Origin: a virus
IMG/VR virus record: IMGVR_UViG_3300009168_000095
Location: 1 to 28,199 of that record
DNA: 28,199 nucleotides
Reading direction: 5' to 3' (one strand)
The notes under the pieces are model-generated. The model was not told the DNA's origin and did no database searches. It was given only the letters and a program-made list of their open reading frames with translations. Within the stretch, counting starts at the first letter, position 1. Each line of letters begins with the position of its first letter. Below are positions 6,508 through 27,413 of the stretch, one piece after another. The translations under genes and the position numbers were made by a program.

Positions 6508-6562
6508 ATCGGTTAGCCGCTTGGCGGTCTCCCGTGTGTTTGGCGGTAATGTCACAAAACCA

Positions 6563-6591
6563 TTGCCAATTAGACCACCTACGGTCATAAT
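6563..6591 (+). promoter_or_regulatory. sigma70-like promoter of the lysis-type module
   Basis: TTGCCA (6563-6568), a 17-nt spacer, then CATAAT (6586-6591), about 40 nt ahead of the TTG start at 6635. The 127-nt gap before 6635 otherwise holds a small CCGC-TTG-GCGG hairpin (about 6516-6526) and no convincing ORF. Confidence 0.5.
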
Positions 6592-6634
6592 GCGCGGCGA
6601 AACGTAGGACTCAGCCCTCAAGGAGACTAACGAC

Positions 6635-6913
6635 TTGTTCACACTTCCCTCAACGGCAACGCAGTGGCTACAAGGTTTAATTGCTGCTGTAATCGGCGGC
6701 GGCGCATCGGCGGGGCAATCATGGTTAGCGATGAGTACCGCACATGCCATTGGTATTGACGTTCCCGTGCTTAATTTTAAGGCGTTAGGAATAATCATGC
6801 TGAGTGCCGCGCTCGCATCCATGTTGGCTTTTCTCGCCAAGTCACCAATACCCACCACCACGAAGTCAACGACTTTAACGGTGACGCAAGAAACTATTGA
6901 TGGAAGGACTTAA
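6635..6913 (+). CDS. putative holin-like membrane protein
   Basis: 92 aa from a TTG start with AAGGAGA 8 nt upstream. Two hydrophobic segments, about residues 9-30 (GLIAAVIGGGASAG) and 46-68 (ALGIIMLSAALASMLAFLA), are followed by a Thr-rich tail. The size, topology and place at the head of the block that ends with an endolysin fit a holin, but other membrane proteins downstream (7972, 8299, 9594) are equally possible holins. Confidence 0.6.
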   Translation: MFTLPSTATQWLQGLIAAVIGGGASAGQSWLAMSTAHAIGIDVPVLNFKALGIIMLSAALASMLAFLAKSPIPTTTKSTTLTVTQETIDGRT

Positions 6914-7883: not shown

Positions 7884-7959
7884 TTTGCAGGGATTGGCGG
7901 CTTGCCACTTTTCGGAGACGATAGCCAGAACTAAACTTGGTACGTTCGATTCCTGCAAA
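7884..7959 (+). ncRNA. candidate structured RNA element
   Basis: TTTGCAGG (7884-7891) is perfectly complementary to CCTGCAAA (7952-7959). Inside are TGGC-GGCTT-GCCA (7895-7907) and TCG-GAGA-CGA (7912-7921, a GNRA-type loop). Total length is about 76 nt. It has a TTCGATT-like loop sequence reminiscent of a tRNA T-arm, but the arms do not fit a tRNA. It lies between two small genes; the downstream start at 7972 lacks an SD. Confidence 0.35.
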
Positions 7960-7971
7960 TACCTTCAACTA

Positions 7972-8187
7972 ATGTCTGAAACTGTGCAGATAGCTTTAAT
8001 AGTATCAATCGCCCCGACCGTAGCAGCGATAGCGGGTTTGATTGTCTCGTTCAGAAACACGCAGAAGCTAAACACGATGCACATTGACATTAACTCACGC
8101 CTTTCCGCAGCATTGAAAAGTGAGCGAGCGTTAGGAGTAGAAGAAGGCCGAAGATTTCAGACCGAAGACAACGACGTAAAAGCGTAA
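7972..8187 (+). CDS. 71-aa membrane protein
   Basis: I start at ATG 7972 (MSETVQIAL); the frame is open back to a TTG at 7885, but that part overlaps an inverted-repeat element and has no SD. One transmembrane helix (IALIVSIAPTVAAIAGLIVS, residues 7-26) is followed by a charged soluble domain. An ATACCT hexamer 7 nt upstream may give a leaderless message. Topology fits a pinholin or spanin-like accessory protein, not proven. Confidence 0.55.
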   Translation: MSETVQIALIVSIAPTVAAIAGLIVSFRNTQKLNTMHIDINSRLSAALKSERALGVEEGRRFQTEDNDVKA

Positions 8188-8194
8188 ACAAGAT

Positions 8195-8282
8195 TCACGG
8201 GACGTTTGGTGATCCGAAACGCAGTTACCGTTTAAAGAGAGCGGTAACAGCAAAAGATTAACCTGAAGAGAGCGTCCCGTGA
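8195..8282 (+). ncRNA. candidate structured RNA with closing 10-bp stem
   Basis: TCACGGGACG (8195-8204) pairs perfectly with CGTCCCGTGA (8273-8282). Enclosed are GTTTGG-TGAT-CCGAAAC (8204-8220, one bulge) and GTTACCG (8224-8230) pairing with CGGTAAC (8242-8248). It fills almost the entire 111-nt gap between two membrane-protein genes. It could be an sRNA, a riboregulator of the next gene, or a DNA site. No known family recognised. Confidence 0.45.
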
Positions 8283-8298
8283 GTAACTTAAAGCCCCA

Positions 8299-8568
8299 AT
8301 GTTCAAAATCAACCTTGAAAGATTTGACGCTAGAGAACTTGGAGCGTTACTCGCTCTCTGTACTGCATGTGCAGTTGTCACGATAGCGATCATCGGCATG
8401 ATCTTCAGACCACCACAGCCAGAAGGTCGCGAGGCCGTTTATCACATAGTTAGTTCCCTGGTAGGACTTGCCGCAGGGTTATTAGGTGGTGGCGCAGCCG
8501 GATTTGCGCTCGCGTCCAAGAAAGAGCAAGCGAAGAAAGAGGAAGTCAATGGAACTGACGCTAAATAA
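8299..8568 (+). CDS. putative holin (two transmembrane segments)
   Basis: 89 aa. Hydrophobic segments at about 15-37 (LGALLALCTACAVVTIAIIG) and 52-72 (SSLVGLAAGLLGGGAAGFAL), then a Lys/Glu-rich C-terminus, are typical of class II holins. It overlaps the start of the endolysin gene by 20 nt, the expected neighbour. The start has no good SD; the structured element 8195-8282 lies 16 nt upstream and might control it. Confidence 0.65.
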   Translation: MFKINLERFDARELGALLALCTACAVVTIAIIGMIFRPPQPEGREAVYHIVSSLVGLAAGLLGGGAAGFALASKKEQAKKEEVNGTDAK

Positions 8569-9076
8569 TCTTGCCAACATAATGACTGGATGTTCAGTGT
8601 CGAAGCTGGAGACCTATCTTCCGTTTCTCAATGCCGCAATGGAAGAAGGCGAGATAGACACACCCTTACGACAAGCAATGTTCCTCGCCCAGCTAGGCCA
8701 CGAAAGCATGAGTTTCCGCTACATGGAAGAAATAGCATCCGGCGCAGCCTATGAAGGGCGTAAGGACTTAGGAAATACTCACACCGGAGACGGTAAGAGA
8801 TTCAAGGGCCGAGGCCCAATCCAACTAACAGGCAGAGCGAACTACAAGGCCGCAGGGGACGCGTTAGGCGTGGACTTTATCAACAGTCCTGAGATAGCAG
8901 CATTCCCTGAATACGGCTTTAGAACGGCTGTTTGGTTCTGGGGTACACGTAACCTGAACGTCCCGTCGGACGCAGGGGACATCAAGACTGTGACTAAGAA
9001 GATCAACGGGGGATTAACGGGTTTTGATGATCGCAAGGCGCGATATGCAAAGGCAAAGAAAGAGTTAGGAGTCTAA
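8549..9076 (+). CDS. GH19-family endolysin (chitinase-like muramidase)
   Basis: 175 aa starting MELTLNNLAN. LAQLGHESMSFRYMEE (residues 46-61) holds the GH19 catalytic Glu (E52, in HES), and GRGPIQLTGRANY (87-99) is the signature substrate-groove motif; a W-W-x-R-N-like segment and a C-terminal KKINGG follow. GH19 phage enzymes degrade peptidoglycan for lysis. There is no signal peptide, so it needs a holin, consistent with the overlapping upstream gene. I chose ATG 8549 over a longer open frame that overlaps the membrane protein; GAAAGAGGAAG lies upstream. Confidence 0.93.
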   Translation: MELTLNNLANIMTGCSVSKLETYLPFLNAAMEEGEIDTPLRQAMFLAQLGHESMSFRYMEEIASGAAYEGRKDLGNTHTGDGKRFKGRGPIQLTGRANYKAAGDALGVDFINSPEIAAFPEYGFRTAVWFWGTRNLNVPSDAGDIKTVTKKINGGLTGFDDRKARYAKAKKELGV

Positions 9077-11563: not shown

Positions 11564-12037
11564 TCAGACGCTCGCTTGTATTTCCTCAAGAGTTTGGCAC
11601 TCATACTTGGCGCAACACTCATCACAAGATTTACAGTGGTCACAAGTTGCTGGCTTAAAGCACGTCTCACATTCGTCGTCTTCGTCGTCGCTTTTTTCTT
11701 CCTCTTTGTCCACTTCTTCGATATAATGCTCAGCAATTTCATAGAAGTTGACTTCAGAGATAGCCGCACCAAGCAAGTCAGCGAACATGGAAGCGGATTG
11801 ATTAGCCGAGTCCAGCATTTCTTGTGCGGACTCCTCAATTTGTTCTTTGATTAGCGCGGCCAACGTATTGATAGCGGCTTGCTCGCGTGTCTGATAGGAT
11901 TCGGCTTCAGCTTCGTTGTAAACCTCTTGCGCGGCTTCCTGCCAATAGGCTTGCGATCCTTCGTCGTTATCGAGCCACAAGTTGACGTTCCAGGTTTCGT
12001 AATTAGTCCATCCGTTGTAAGTTTTATCGTTTGACAT
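11564..12037 (-). CDS. conserved phage protein, DUF7249-like, with C-terminal zinc cluster
   Basis: 157 aa. The N-terminus YNGWTNYETWNVNLWLDNDEG is the hallmark of a widespread phage/plasmid family (DUF7249 type) of unknown function. A long helix, L-K-E-Q-I-E-E, and a central FADLLGAAISEVNFYEIAEH segment are also typical. This copy carries an additional acidic linker and a Cys-rich tail (CETCFKPATCDHCKSCDECC, about 126-145). GAGAGGAT is upstream of ATG 12037. Family confidence high, function unknown. Confidence 0.85.
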   Translation of the reverse strand: MSNDKTYNGWTNYETWNVNLWLDNDEGSQAYWQEAAQEVYNEAEAESYQTREQAAINTLAALIKEQIEESAQEMLDSANQSASMFADLLGAAISEVNFYEIAEHYIEEVDKEEEKSDDEDDECETCFKPATCDHCKSCDECCAKYECQTLEEIQASV

Positions 12038-15756: not shown

Positions 15757-16237
15757 ATGCTGAAGAATGCAGGACTTTATCGAATCCATTGGGAAGAATC
15801 TGCGGGAGGCGGCACATCTTTGGCCGCTGTGGGGGTTCAATCCTGATGGTTCACAGTGGATTGCGCCGACGAATTGGGTGAACGGGCCGTTGCCGCTCGA
15901 TAAAATCGTGGATATTCGGTACATGGAGAAGATTGTTACCGAAGTGGACGAAGCTGAATTTCCGGTGGCAGTGCTTGGAGAGCGTCCGGTGGTGGAAATC
16001 GACTTGTGTTTCTCCGTTATTGATCAAGGAGTGATTGACTTGGCCTATCGAGAGGTCTTGCAGCAGTTCAAGCAGAACCGCATGGGCGTAGACATCTTGA
16101 TTAAGCGGGTGCCAACCACGATTGGGCCACCACGTCTAATTTGCGACTACGGGCAAATTTATGAAGCGTTGGTCGATGTTTTGCAGATGTCAAAGAACGC
16201 TGAAATTACTGAGCATATTAGCATAAAAGAGGGATAA
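15757..16237 (+). pseudogene. frameshifted gene; N-terminal part in another frame
   Basis: ATG 15757 (GGGGGAG 6 nt upstream) encodes MLKNAGLYRIHWEESAGGGT then SLAAVG, reading into a GGGGG run at 15831-15835 and stopping at 15844-15846. Dropping one G joins it to the downstream frame FNPDGSQWIAPTNWVNGP, giving the Y-R-x-x-W...G-G-T-S-L-A-A-V-G...W-x-A-P-T-N-W pattern of a phage protein family I recognise. The rest (about 120 residues, to 16237) is alpha/beta and open. ATG 15767 in the downstream frame has no SD. Sequencing indel or genuine frameshift. Confidence 0.65.
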
Positions 16238-23504: not shown

Positions 23505-23522
23505 CGAATAGAGTAGATTGCT

Positions 23523-23620
23523 CCCGCCGACCAAGATTGAATGGCGTGGGCTTTGTTTTTAGCCTTAACAGATTCCAGATACTTAGACCAAAATCGTCCG
23601 CGCTTGTCTTGGTCGGCAGG
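23523..23620 (+). ncRNA. candidate structured RNA upstream of the pentamer array
   Basis: CCCGCCGACCAAGA (23523-23536) pairs with TCTTGGTCGGCAGG (23607-23620) at 13 of 14 positions, including an unbroken 11-bp stem. It encloses 70 nt with a small GGCT...AGCC hairpin (about 23550-23566). No supported ORF lies within. It is followed by the 5-nt-phased array (23657-23721) and the RAMP-like gene, presumably on the same transcript. Confidence 0.5.
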
Positions 23621-23656
23621 CTCTAACGAAGGTCGGGTGTCTGGAATTTGTTTTTC

Positions 23657-23721
23657 AGGGAGTGGCGTGGTGCGCTGGTTTAGGGTTGGCATAGGTCAGT
23701 TCCGGCTTGGTATGGTGCGCT
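23657..23721 (+). repeat. degenerate pentanucleotide-phased array, upstream copy
   Basis: G occurs at 12 of 13 positions spaced exactly 5 nt (23659 to 23719). Pentamers follow an NNGGY tendency, such as GTGGC, GTGGT, AGGGT, TAGGT, CCGGC, TTGGT and ATGGT, with GCGCT twice. It is not a simple tandem repeat, since the other positions vary. The 5-nt period is incompatible with codons. It ends about 8 nt before the SD (AAGGAG) of the 23744 gene. Confidence 0.65.
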
Positions 23722-23743
23722 ATTCCTCTAAGGAGAATCTGTT

Positions 23744-24379: not shown

Positions 24380-24571
24380 GTTATGGCTAATTCAGCCACG
24401 GTCGGCTAGGTATCGTTGTGTTGTGGTATGCCGAGCAGTGGTGAGGGTGGCTGCGGAATGTTCCGCTTTGGTCTTGCAACGGTGAGGCGTGGCCTTATAA
24501 GGAGAGTTGCGGTGAGGTATGGAACGGCGAGCTGAGCATGGTCGTGTTGGGGTTCGGTTTGGTCAGGTAAG
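24379..24571 (+). repeat. degenerate pentanucleotide-phased array, downstream copy
   Basis: Starting at the stop codon, G occupies 18 of 19 positions from 24380 to 24470 in steps of 5, then, after a 1-nt phase slip near 24475-24480, 18 of 19 from 24481 to 24571. Units follow NG(G/C/T)(T/C)N, such as CGGTC, TGGTA, AGGGT, CGGTG, AGGTA and CGGTT. The units are degenerate, with no ORF. The array runs into the terminator-like hairpin at 24570-24609. The match to the upstream array is in period, consensus and strand. Confidence 0.75.
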
Positions 24572-24609
24572 AAAGAGCTAAGATAAGATTCATTATCTTG
24601 GCTCTTTCT
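24570..24609 (+). terminator. 17-bp hairpin, probable transcription terminator
   Basis: AGAAAGAGCTAAGATAA (24570-24586), 6-nt loop, TTATCTTGGCTCTTTCT (24593-24609): 17 pairs with a single G-U wobble. The 3' flank is pyrimidine-rich (CTATTGT) rather than a pure T-run. It likely ends the array transcript and may act in both directions. Confidence 0.65.
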
Positions 24610-24613
24610 ATTG

Positions 24614-24619
24614 TATACT
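24614..24619 (+). promoter_or_regulatory. -10 element of the terminase gene
   Basis: TATACT lies 7 nt before the ATG at 24627. There is no SD, suggesting a leaderless transcript. No good -35 box is visible because the spacer position falls in the hairpin 24570-24609. Confidence 0.4.
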
Positions 24620-24626
24620 CAACGAA

Positions 24627-26675
24627 ATGCCTAAGTTGACGAGGGAAGAAACTCAAACACTCTTTAGAGCTTTAGAGATTTCTTCTTTGTCCGAGATCGA
24701 TGATGATTGGGTAGGCCAGTTTCTCTCCAAACTCAACGACCCTGTAAAGAAAGCCGCGTGGAATCAACTTCTCGGAATCATCGAAGAATTCCGTCCTGAA
24801 GAATACAAACGCCTCAACAACTTCGCCAAGAACAACAAGGGAATGCTGCTGGAGTTCCAAGGATGGGAACGCTGGTTAAAGACTCTGGGAGCGCAGACCT
24901 TTACCCGCGACTTTGCCCCGATTCAAAAGAGATTTTGGGATTGGAATTGGCGAGCGTTGCTGAAGATTCGCAAGAACGTCCCGCTTGATCCGAAAGAGAT
25001 GGTTGGCTTTTTACCATGGTCCAGGGAGACGGGGAAAAGTTCAGTAACCGAGTGGGCGTGCATTGCCGAAGGAGCCTTGCTCAGAGGCGGGTATGTCATC
25101 TTCTACTCAGGCAAGCAATCGCAAGCAGAGGAACACGTTACTTCAATCCGTGACCGCATTGAATCTGAGCATGTCAGTGACCTTTATCCGTGGTTAGGGA
25201 AGCCCAAGGTCGGCGCACACGGAAACAAGTTTGGATGGGGTAAAGAGTTCCTGATGACGAGTGGTGGTTGGGCCATCCGACCTGTTGGAGCTGATGTAGC
25301 GATACGCGGCGGTAAGACACTCAACCTTAGACCAACGCTGATCGTGGTAGACGACCTTGATGAACTCGGTGAGTCACCCGTTGTGGTCGAACACAAGGAA
25401 CAGATTCTCACTCGCTCAATTCTGCCGATGGGGAATGACAAAACTCGTGTACTTGTCCCGCAGAATCCCATTCACGCGAACTCAGTAGTCAATCGAATGC
25501 TGACGGGCGTGTCACTTGCGTTGGCGATTAGAACCGTGTTCGGGGAGTTGAATGATGACGGTTCAATGTCCACTCGTCCTGTACCTGCGGTGCGCGACTT
25601 TGCTTACGAAGTCCGCCAAACCGATGAAGGCCCATTCTCTAAAATCACTCAAGGCGAAACGAACTGGCCTGGGATTACGATAGAAGGTTGGGAGCGAACT
25701 CTTAATCGTGTTGGGCCACTAGCATTCGAGAGCGAATACCAACACCGACTCGACGTAATGTTAGAGGAAAGGGTTCTTCCCGAATACGATGACAGGGTGC
25801 TACGGACGAATCTGATTTCGTGGAGTCAATATGAAACAATGTATGGGACTCGTCGGATTCCGAGTGATTGGATTTGTGATGTTGGTTGCGATATTGGATA
25901 TTCGGTAGGCCATCGAACTGCGTTTACATTTCTCACGCGAGCACCGCACGGCGCACCTCTAGCGGGAAGTATTTTTCGTTATCGAGGATGTGTATTCACG
26001 GCTACCACGATTGGAGAAATGAGCACATCAGTAAAAGCCCGTCTATGGCCTGATGAAAACCTTCAGCGGGAATGGTTGAGTCACGAGAAGTTAGGCGAGC
26101 GGCTAGTGCTTAATCGAGAGCATGGTTGGCACTTCCAGACGTGCGAAAGTGCAAAAACCGCAGGAATTCCGCAATGGAGGCACTTTCTCAAGTCTGATAA
26201 GACGCAGCCGCATCCATTTCACCGAGATGAAAAAAGTGTAGATGGCTTGTGGAAGATTGGTCGTCCAGCATGGTTTGATGTTGTGGACGATGACCAGTTC
26301 TTTCAACCCTATGATGACCGTGGATTAAAGGTGCATCGTGACCAAGCATTTAATTGGCGACTAAAGCCTGAGAAGCTGACGGAAAGCGGGCTGACTATTC
26401 AGCAGCCTATGAAGGCAGACGAAGATTCCTGCGACGCTACGAGAATGTGTACAGCCGCTCCAAATTTTGGGCCAACTATGCGAGGAATGACCCAATATGA
26501 AAAGGTGCAAGCCATTATCCCGCAGGGCTATCATGTTAATGAGTTAGTCAAACGTGTTGACTTAGACCCTAACCAACAACACATGACTGGTCAGATGGCA
26601 ACCTTTTTAGCGAGAAAAACATTAGGCTTGGATAAGCCTAAATTAGTTGATCCATGGGGCCAGCCGATAAGGTAA
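24627..26675 (+). CDS. terL: terminase large subunit
   Basis: 682 aa, the DNA-packaging ATPase and nuclease. Residues 130-139 (PWSRETGKSS) are the Walker A-like loop, LIVVDDLDE (238-246) is Walker B with the catalytic acid, and LVPQNP (276-281) suits the coupling motif. The nuclease domain begins near D418 (CDVGCDIGYS, with D422), after the FESEYQ motif (367-372). The 110-residue N-terminal extension before the ATPase is helical and longer than usual. The gene is far from the small-terminase candidate at 13813 and downstream of the head genes, an uncommon order. It starts 18 nt after a strong hairpin. Confidence 0.93.
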   Translation: MPKLTREETQTLFRALEISSLSEIDDDWVGQFLSKLNDPVKKAAWNQLLGIIEEFRPEEYKRLNNFAKNNKGMLLEFQGWERWLKTLGAQTFTRDFAPIQKRFWDWNWRALLKIRKNVPLDPKEMVGFLPWSRETGKSSVTEWACIAEGALLRGGYVIFYSGKQSQAEEHVTSIRDRIESEHVSDLYPWLGKPKVGAHGNKFGWGKEFLMTSGGWAIRPVGADVAIRGGKTLNLRPTLIVVDDLDELGESPVVVEHKEQILTRSILPMGNDKTRVLVPQNPIHANSVVNRMLTGVSLALAIRTVFGELNDDGSMSTRPVPAVRDFAYEVRQTDEGPFSKITQGETNWPGITIEGWERTLNRVGPLAFESEYQHRLDVMLEERVLPEYDDRVLRTNLISWSQYETMYGTRRIPSDWICDVGCDIGYSVGHRTAFTFLTRAPHGAPLAGSIFRYRGCVFTATTIGEMSTSVKARLWPDENLQREWLSHEKLGERLVLNREHGWHFQTCESAKTAGIPQWRHFLKSDKTQPHPFHRDEKSVDGLWKIGRPAWFDVVDDDQFFQPYDDRGLKVHRDQAFNWRLKPEKLTESGLTIQQPMKADEDSCDATRMCTAAPNFGPTMRGMTQYEKVQAIIPQGYHVNELVKRVDLDPNQQHMTGQMATFLARKTLGLDKPKLVDPWGQPIR

Positions 26676-26747: not shown

Positions 26748-27413
26748 ATGCCAGCTAAATCTAAAATAACTCTTGGCGATCAATTTGGAAAGCTCACTGT
26801 GAGTATCTTTCTTGGTATTCGTAATAAAGAGCGATGGTGGGAGTGCATTTGCGAGTGCGGTAAAACCGTTGAGCGAACTACGGGACAGTTAAGACGACGA
26901 CGTTCTTGTGGTTGCTTGCGTGGAAAGAACGGTATTAAGCATGGAATGTCTGAGAGTGATGAGTTTGTTATTTGGCACACAATGAAGGCACGTTGTTATA
27001 ACCCGAAAGCCACTGGATATGAAAGATACGGAGGAGCGGGAATATCAATGTCTGATGAATGGCGCGATGATTTTATGGCATTTTATAATCATATAGGGCC
27101 ACGTCCATCAAAAAGACATTCCGTAGATCGTTGGCCGAATCCAAGTGGCAATTATGAACCGAATAATGTTCGGTGGGCCACCAAAGAGGAACAGGGACGT
27201 AATAAAAGAACGAATGTAATTTTCACTCTGAACGGGGAGTCTAAGACTTGTATTGAGTGGAGTGAGATTCTTGGAATTAAGCCAATGACTTTGCAAGGGC
27301 GTAAATACCATGGGTGGTCGGATGAAGAAATACTCACGACACCGACACTTAAACAAGGAAGGAGAAAAAACAGTGTTGGAAGATATGAAATCCCTGACGG
27401 AAGCGGTAAATAG
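26748..27413 (+). CDS. HNH/NUMOD-type homing endonuclease-like protein
   Basis: 221 aa; ATG 26748 was chosen because GGAG lies upstream. Residues 33-56 hold CICEC and CGC Cys groups (zinc ribbon). IWHTMKARCYNPKATGYERY (75-94) and EWRDDFMAFYNHIGPRPS are typical of the family; HSVDRW followed by GNYEPNNVRWAT (124-145) is the catalytic HNH-like region. The C-terminal NGESKTCIEWSEILGI...GW (162-190) is a NUMOD/IENR1-like DNA-binding repeat. Such genes are free-standing mobile endonucleases often inserted next to terL. Probably a selfish element. Confidence 0.85.
   Translation: MPAKSKITLGDQFGKLTVSIFLGIRNKERWWECICECGKTVERTTGQLRRRRSCGCLRGKNGIKHGMSESDEFVIWHTMKARCYNPKATGYERYGGAGISMSDEWRDDFMAFYNHIGPRPSKRHSVDRWPNPSGNYEPNNVRWATKEEQGRNKRTNVIFTLNGESKTCIEWSEILGIKPMTLQGRKYHGWSDEEILTTPTLKQGRRKNSVGRYEIPDGSGK

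Follow-up and report, generated by a model that had tools for sequence, protein, structure and literature searches.

How would a ribosome begin the small gene ahead of the endolysin in a phage lysis operon when that gene has no Shine-Dalgarno sequence (SD) and the gap in front of it is taken up by RNA structure? The question is raised by the window, the whole 28,199-base virus record of an uncultured phage analysed here. An earlier note on this DNA had described a compact structured element filling the gap (8188-8298) before a small SD-less gene. We confirmed this element, here called B, finding that it is real and more regular than the earlier note saw, as another gap of this phage and one in a related phage follow its plan.

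The lysis operon and its relatives

A GH19 endolysin gene lies directly downstream of the SD-less holin-like gene, bearing out the lysis-module setting proposed previously. The features on which the argument draws are these:

6563-6591, plus strand: likely lysis-operon promoter, TTGCCA-17-CATAAT, sigma-70-like, inside a 41-nt stretch identical to L003
7669-7878, plus strand: 69-aa ORF with the SD AGGAG, upstream of element A
7884-7959, plus strand: element A, the second structured gap, closed by a stem of 12 bp or more (TTTGCAGGGATT/GATTCCTGCAAA), homologous to L003 5906-5992
7972-8187, plus strand: 71-aa ORF with one hydrophobic segment and no SD, between A and B
8185-8187, plus strand: UAA stop of ORF 7972-8187, exactly 5 nt before the stem of B
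8193-8284, plus strand: element B, a rod-like RNA hairpin of 92 nt (15-bp closing stem 8193-8207/8270-8284; z -7.65)
8299-8568, plus strand: 89-aa holin-like protein with hydrophobic segments (by eye) and no SD, its start supported by the L003 homologue
8549-9076, plus strand: endolysin with a GH19 chitinase-like domain and an SD

Here L003 denotes the lysis-module piece of G002 (IMGVR_UViG_3300012038_000181, 72.5 kb), a relative whose proteins share 72% (holin-like, over the full alignment), 87% (endolysin) and 78% (terminase) identity with those of the window. Another record, G001 (IMGVR_UViG_3300027743_000002, 74.7 kb), is identical to the window across the lysis module. Scans of viral and bacterial contigs with the holin-like protein, ORF 7972, the endolysin, the terminase and the DNA pattern of element A as queries found the module only in these two records, and phage records searched with the DNA or the holin-like protein gave no match. 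None of the isolated phages in the collection is close to the window; the terminase matched isolated phages only at 28% identity, in two Streptomyces phages.

The 41-nt stretch (window 6562-6602, L003 4312-4352) sits just upstream of the first lysis-operon gene, and its flanks have diverged, so that we regard it as a likely conserved promoter. Small ORFs follow at 6635, 6914 (with a lipoprotein-like product, judged by eye), 7461, 7669, 7972 and 8299, and then the GH19 endolysin at 8549. A homologue of ORF 7972-8187 was not found in G002. We also confirmed that ATG 8299 has no SD; this start is supported by the L003 homologue, whose identity with the protein sets in at M1, and the next Met is residue 34. 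The hydrophobic segments of the product and the place of its gene make the label "holin-like" plausible, but PHROG and Pfam gave no match for the protein. Elsewhere, HNH-endonuclease-like ORFs (by eye) lie between other genes, at L035 7525-8031 and L032 5459-6001 (both minus strand) and at 26748-27413 of the window.

Predicted folds of the two gaps

The closing stem reported earlier for B, TCACGGGACG (8195-8204) with CGTCCCGTGA (8273-8282), is 100% complementary across 68 intervening nt, and it grows outward through A8193-U8284 and U8194-G8283 and inward by three pairs to reach 15 bp. Perfect 10-bp arms alone are not unusual, with seven inverted pairs of at least 10 nt within 120 nt in the window; it is the whole fold that stands out. 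Within the stem follow the helices GGU/ACC, GAUC/GAUU and GC/GC and an apical 10-bp hairpin, GUUACCGUUU-AAAGA-GAGCGGUAAC, giving a minimum free energy (MFE) of -39.5 kcal/mol against -17.8 +/- 2.8 in dinucleotide shuffles (z -7.65), none of which, out of 200, folded as well. By raw MFE, B ranks third among all 92-nt windows on both strands, and its gap has the lowest z (-5.94) among 71 gap folds of this phage and its relative. The opposite strand folds too (z -5.2), as hairpins should, with the plus strand being the coding strand of the operon. The multi-branched shape suggested in the earlier note did not hold up: a two-hairpin multiloop reaches -29.2 kcal/mol, 10 worse than the single unbranched rod.

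Searches for known elements were negative. A tRNA/tmRNA search found none, and the terminator scan did not list B as an intrinsic terminator, its tail being AACTTAAAG, with no GC-rich hairpin followed by a T run. A coding reading across B is unlikely, as UAA at 8284 closes the frame of the downstream gene. Only one copy of B was found, 100% identical; we rejected a 25-nt partial copy in G001 as a chance match, and no other relative of B was found in either phage.

Element A occupies the gap before ORF 7972, one gene upstream of B, and its homologue at L003 5906-5992 lies directly before the same holin-like gene in the relative (alignment z 6.0 against shuffles), which has neither ORF 7972 nor element B. 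Between A and L003, 12 of 12 pairs of the A-type stem are kept through 6 substitutions: A-U becomes G-C and G-C becomes A-U (both doubly compensatory), and two further changes are one-sided. In a simulation, six random transition-biased substitutions retained all pairs in 0.9% of cases (chance about 0.009); a shuffle control on this alignment (127/500) is powerless with two rows. These compensatory changes indicate a probably conserved structure for A, as judged from two sequences. The fold z of the A-type copies alone is modest (-2.2 to -2.3), and their interior is partly conserved (ATTGGCGG, GACGA and ACGTT). A coding reading of A, from an in-frame TTG in the stem, is unlikely: the translations of A and L003 agree at few residues, whereas the DNA agrees well (by eye). 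The sequences of A and B show no significant similarity against real-gap controls, and the two are either very diverged or else convergent.

Several apparent further elements were set aside. The remaining matches to the A-type DNA pattern on contigs are due to chance, at sites that look like coding sequence, and a match at L032 5741 sits in an HNH-like gene. Neither L007 nor L008, two contigs whose endolysin is 50% identical, matched the pattern, and L007 showed no comparable gap. At L003 4658-4828, what looked like a gap element falls outside the 25 most structured gaps. Scans for the same layout in both phages and a third yielded one long leader hairpin in G002; the other hits were chance matches in coding DNA.

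Other structured stretches were observed along the way. In G002, a 98-nt leader hairpin on L036 (minus strand 11591-11688; plus 8313-8410) has a near-continuous 23-bp closing stem and -45 kcal/mol; it lies between an apparent intrinsic terminator upstream and a gene whose product begins MSNELKQ, and that protein has no homologue in the parts of G001 examined. Between convergent genes at L033 6343-6433 lies a strong hairpin that resembles a terminator (z -5.1). In the window, two long, G/T-rich gaps with GGTATGGT-like repeats fold strongly, 23505-23743 (z -4.2), before gene 23744, and 24380-24626 (z -3.4), before the terminase gene at 24627; a 17-bp hairpin (24570-24609) forms the end of the latter, leaving 17 nt up to the terminase start, which has no SD.

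A common layout and a possible route to initiation

Elements A and B and the L003 counterpart follow one plan: UAA, exactly 5 nt, a closing stem of 12-17 bp, 8-14 nt and an SD-less AUG, the spacing from stem to AUG being 12 nt in A, 8 nt in L003 and 14 nt in B. As A and its L003 homologue are not independent, this amounts to no more than two independent cases. On either side of the stem, none of the three sites has an SD-antiSD energy stronger than -1.9 kcal/mol, whereas neighbouring genes reach -5.5 to -7.3 kcal/mol, and we found no split SD 5' of the hairpin (duplex energies of 0.4, -1.9 and -0.1 kcal/mol at the three sites). Genes of the window called with a simple script have a strong SD in 43 of 54 cases; SD-less genes without such a hairpin also occur there, for example at 15767. 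Sequestration of an SD or AUG in a helix of B was not found, the AUG region at 8299 ranking 6/94 for accessibility; the start at 7972 ranks 15/94, and the L003 start is only at the median.

The element probably exerts a local control on translation. Our preferred reading, tentative and with a probability of roughly 0.35, is that the intercistronic hairpin shortens the stop-to-start distance, letting the holin-like gene be initiated by coupling and independently of an SD. The features just described (predicted fold, common layout, absent SD, the accessibility of the starts that follow A and B, and the compensation seen in the A-type stem) are computed, and from them we infer a role in translation and any influence on the timing of lysis. 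Element B would act in cis as a hairpin in the polycistronic lysis mRNA, not as an independent RNA. With its 92 nt folded as a rod, 5 nt and 14 nt would be left, so that UAA and AUG would lie about 19 nt apart across the hairpin base instead of 111 nt; in the three elements this distance would be 13-19 nt. Because no SD is present before or after the hairpin, initiation at the mostly unpaired start region would rely mainly on ribosomes that have just terminated upstream, either by coupled reinitiation or through local melting of the stem base. The expected outcome would be a low holin-like output tied to translation of the upstream cistron. Element A may act likewise one gene earlier, and the relative's A-type element would do so directly before the same holin-like gene.

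Over the full stop-to-start distance of 93-111 nt, ordinary reinitiation would be expected to be poor in the absence of an SD, and in an E. coli reporter SD-less reinitiation was <3% at 40 nt separation (PMC2268962). Hairpins that shorten a distance have a precedent in T4 genes 25 and 38, where a hairpin between a split SD and the AUG reduces their effective separation (PMC3014915); there the SD lies 5' of the hairpin, whereas none was found here, and the hairpins here are far larger. Both f1 and MS2 provide known cases of coupling via hairpins close to a start, and in the MS2/fr coat/lysis and f1 VII/IX pairs translation of a weak lysis or small gene depends on upstream termination, as it would here; f1 gene IX also has a long hairpin close upstream of its start (PMC12548453). 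In MS2, fr and f1, however, the ORFs overlap, whereas here the hairpin fills a gap of 93-111 nt and begins 5 nt after the stop. In one screen, structure just downstream of the stop codon correlated negatively with coupling (PMC12548453), so that the hairpin could insulate instead.

A point against coupling is that the stem of B, for which no diverged homologue was found, has no covariation support. We know of no experiment in which ribosomes pass from stop to start over the base of a hairpin like this. A broader proposal, that phages carry a class of hairpins substituting for the SD, in which a rod fixed 5 nt after the stop is crossed at its base by a ribosome that reinitiates at an AUG with no SD, a device that lysis operons would use repeatedly to set the holin dose, we consider doubtful.

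Other readings of the hairpins

The elements could instead be sites for RNase III or another endonuclease, with a cut in the duplex separating and stabilising the cistrons of the lysis mRNA. A long, imperfect intercistronic rod with two helices of about 10-15 bp, internal loops and a small apical loop, and with its geometry repeated in two gaps and in the relative, is in keeping with such a role. T7 offers the nearest likeness, as irregular hairpins in the gaps of its polycistronic early mRNA are RNase III sites; the genes downstream of those sites keep their SDs, however, whereas all three downstream genes here have none, and we rate a processing site as rather unlikely, though a live rival to coupling, as is the reading that follows.

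An inhibitory leader, which would silence the lysis gene on read-through mRNA until a later transcript beginning inside or after the hairpin escapes it, is unlikely too, and somewhat more so. RNA structure does adjoin the lysis gene, but the start region is not sequestered (6/94, as above), and a scan that phage-specific promoters would escape turned up no sigma-70-like promoter from 6591 to the hairpin. The sdi stem-loop of the lambda S holin gene is likewise an RNA structure at a holin start, but it governs the balance between two nearby starts, and the gene here has a single one. In T4 gene e, the model for such a leader, RNA structure also precedes a lysis gene and represses it ~100-fold, but it does so with the SD and AUG sequestered (PMC3014915), whereas the gene here has no SD and its AUG is mostly unpaired.

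With comparably low odds, the hairpins might be structural filler or the remnant of a mobile hairpin or gene insertion, with no present function. The joint absence of ORF 7972-8187 and B from L003 implies that gene and hairpin were gained or lost together, and B has no relative elsewhere in either phage, both of which fit a neutral insertion; the covariation of the A-type stem and the exactly repeated layout argue for selection instead.

We hold it to be quite improbable that the elements are ligand-binding riboswitches, ribozymes or protein-binding operators (for example, for repression by a phage protein). Binding sites could lie in B's internal loops and in the interior that A and L003 partly conserve, but the A/L003 likeness may be plain relatedness, and the interiors of A and B have no significant common sequence, though shared regulation would predict it. 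The earlier note had recognised no known riboswitch family, and we agree: Rfam gave no match at the gathering threshold and, even at E 10, only a chance snoRNA. Its suggestion of a riboregulator timing lysis remains a conjecture; a ligand-sensing one is unsupported, and nothing points to an aptamer. Programmed ribosomal bypassing of the T4 gene 60 type, fusing neighbouring ORFs over the hairpin, is very improbable: a stop codon, a hairpin and another gene do follow one another, and B offers a take-off GCG and, at 8293, an in-frame GCC to which it could form a weak pairing, but a matching in-frame landing codon is absent in L003, none precedes the start in A, and conservation of the holin-like protein begins exactly at the AUG.

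The amount of holin sets the time of lysis. Were the hairpins processing sites or neutral, the finding would be ordinary. If, as in the preferred reading of stop-to-start coupling, the hairpin replaces the SD, it would provide a compact, portable means of tying holin output to the upstream gene, and because the layout is shared by two gaps and by two phages, the idea is directly testable.
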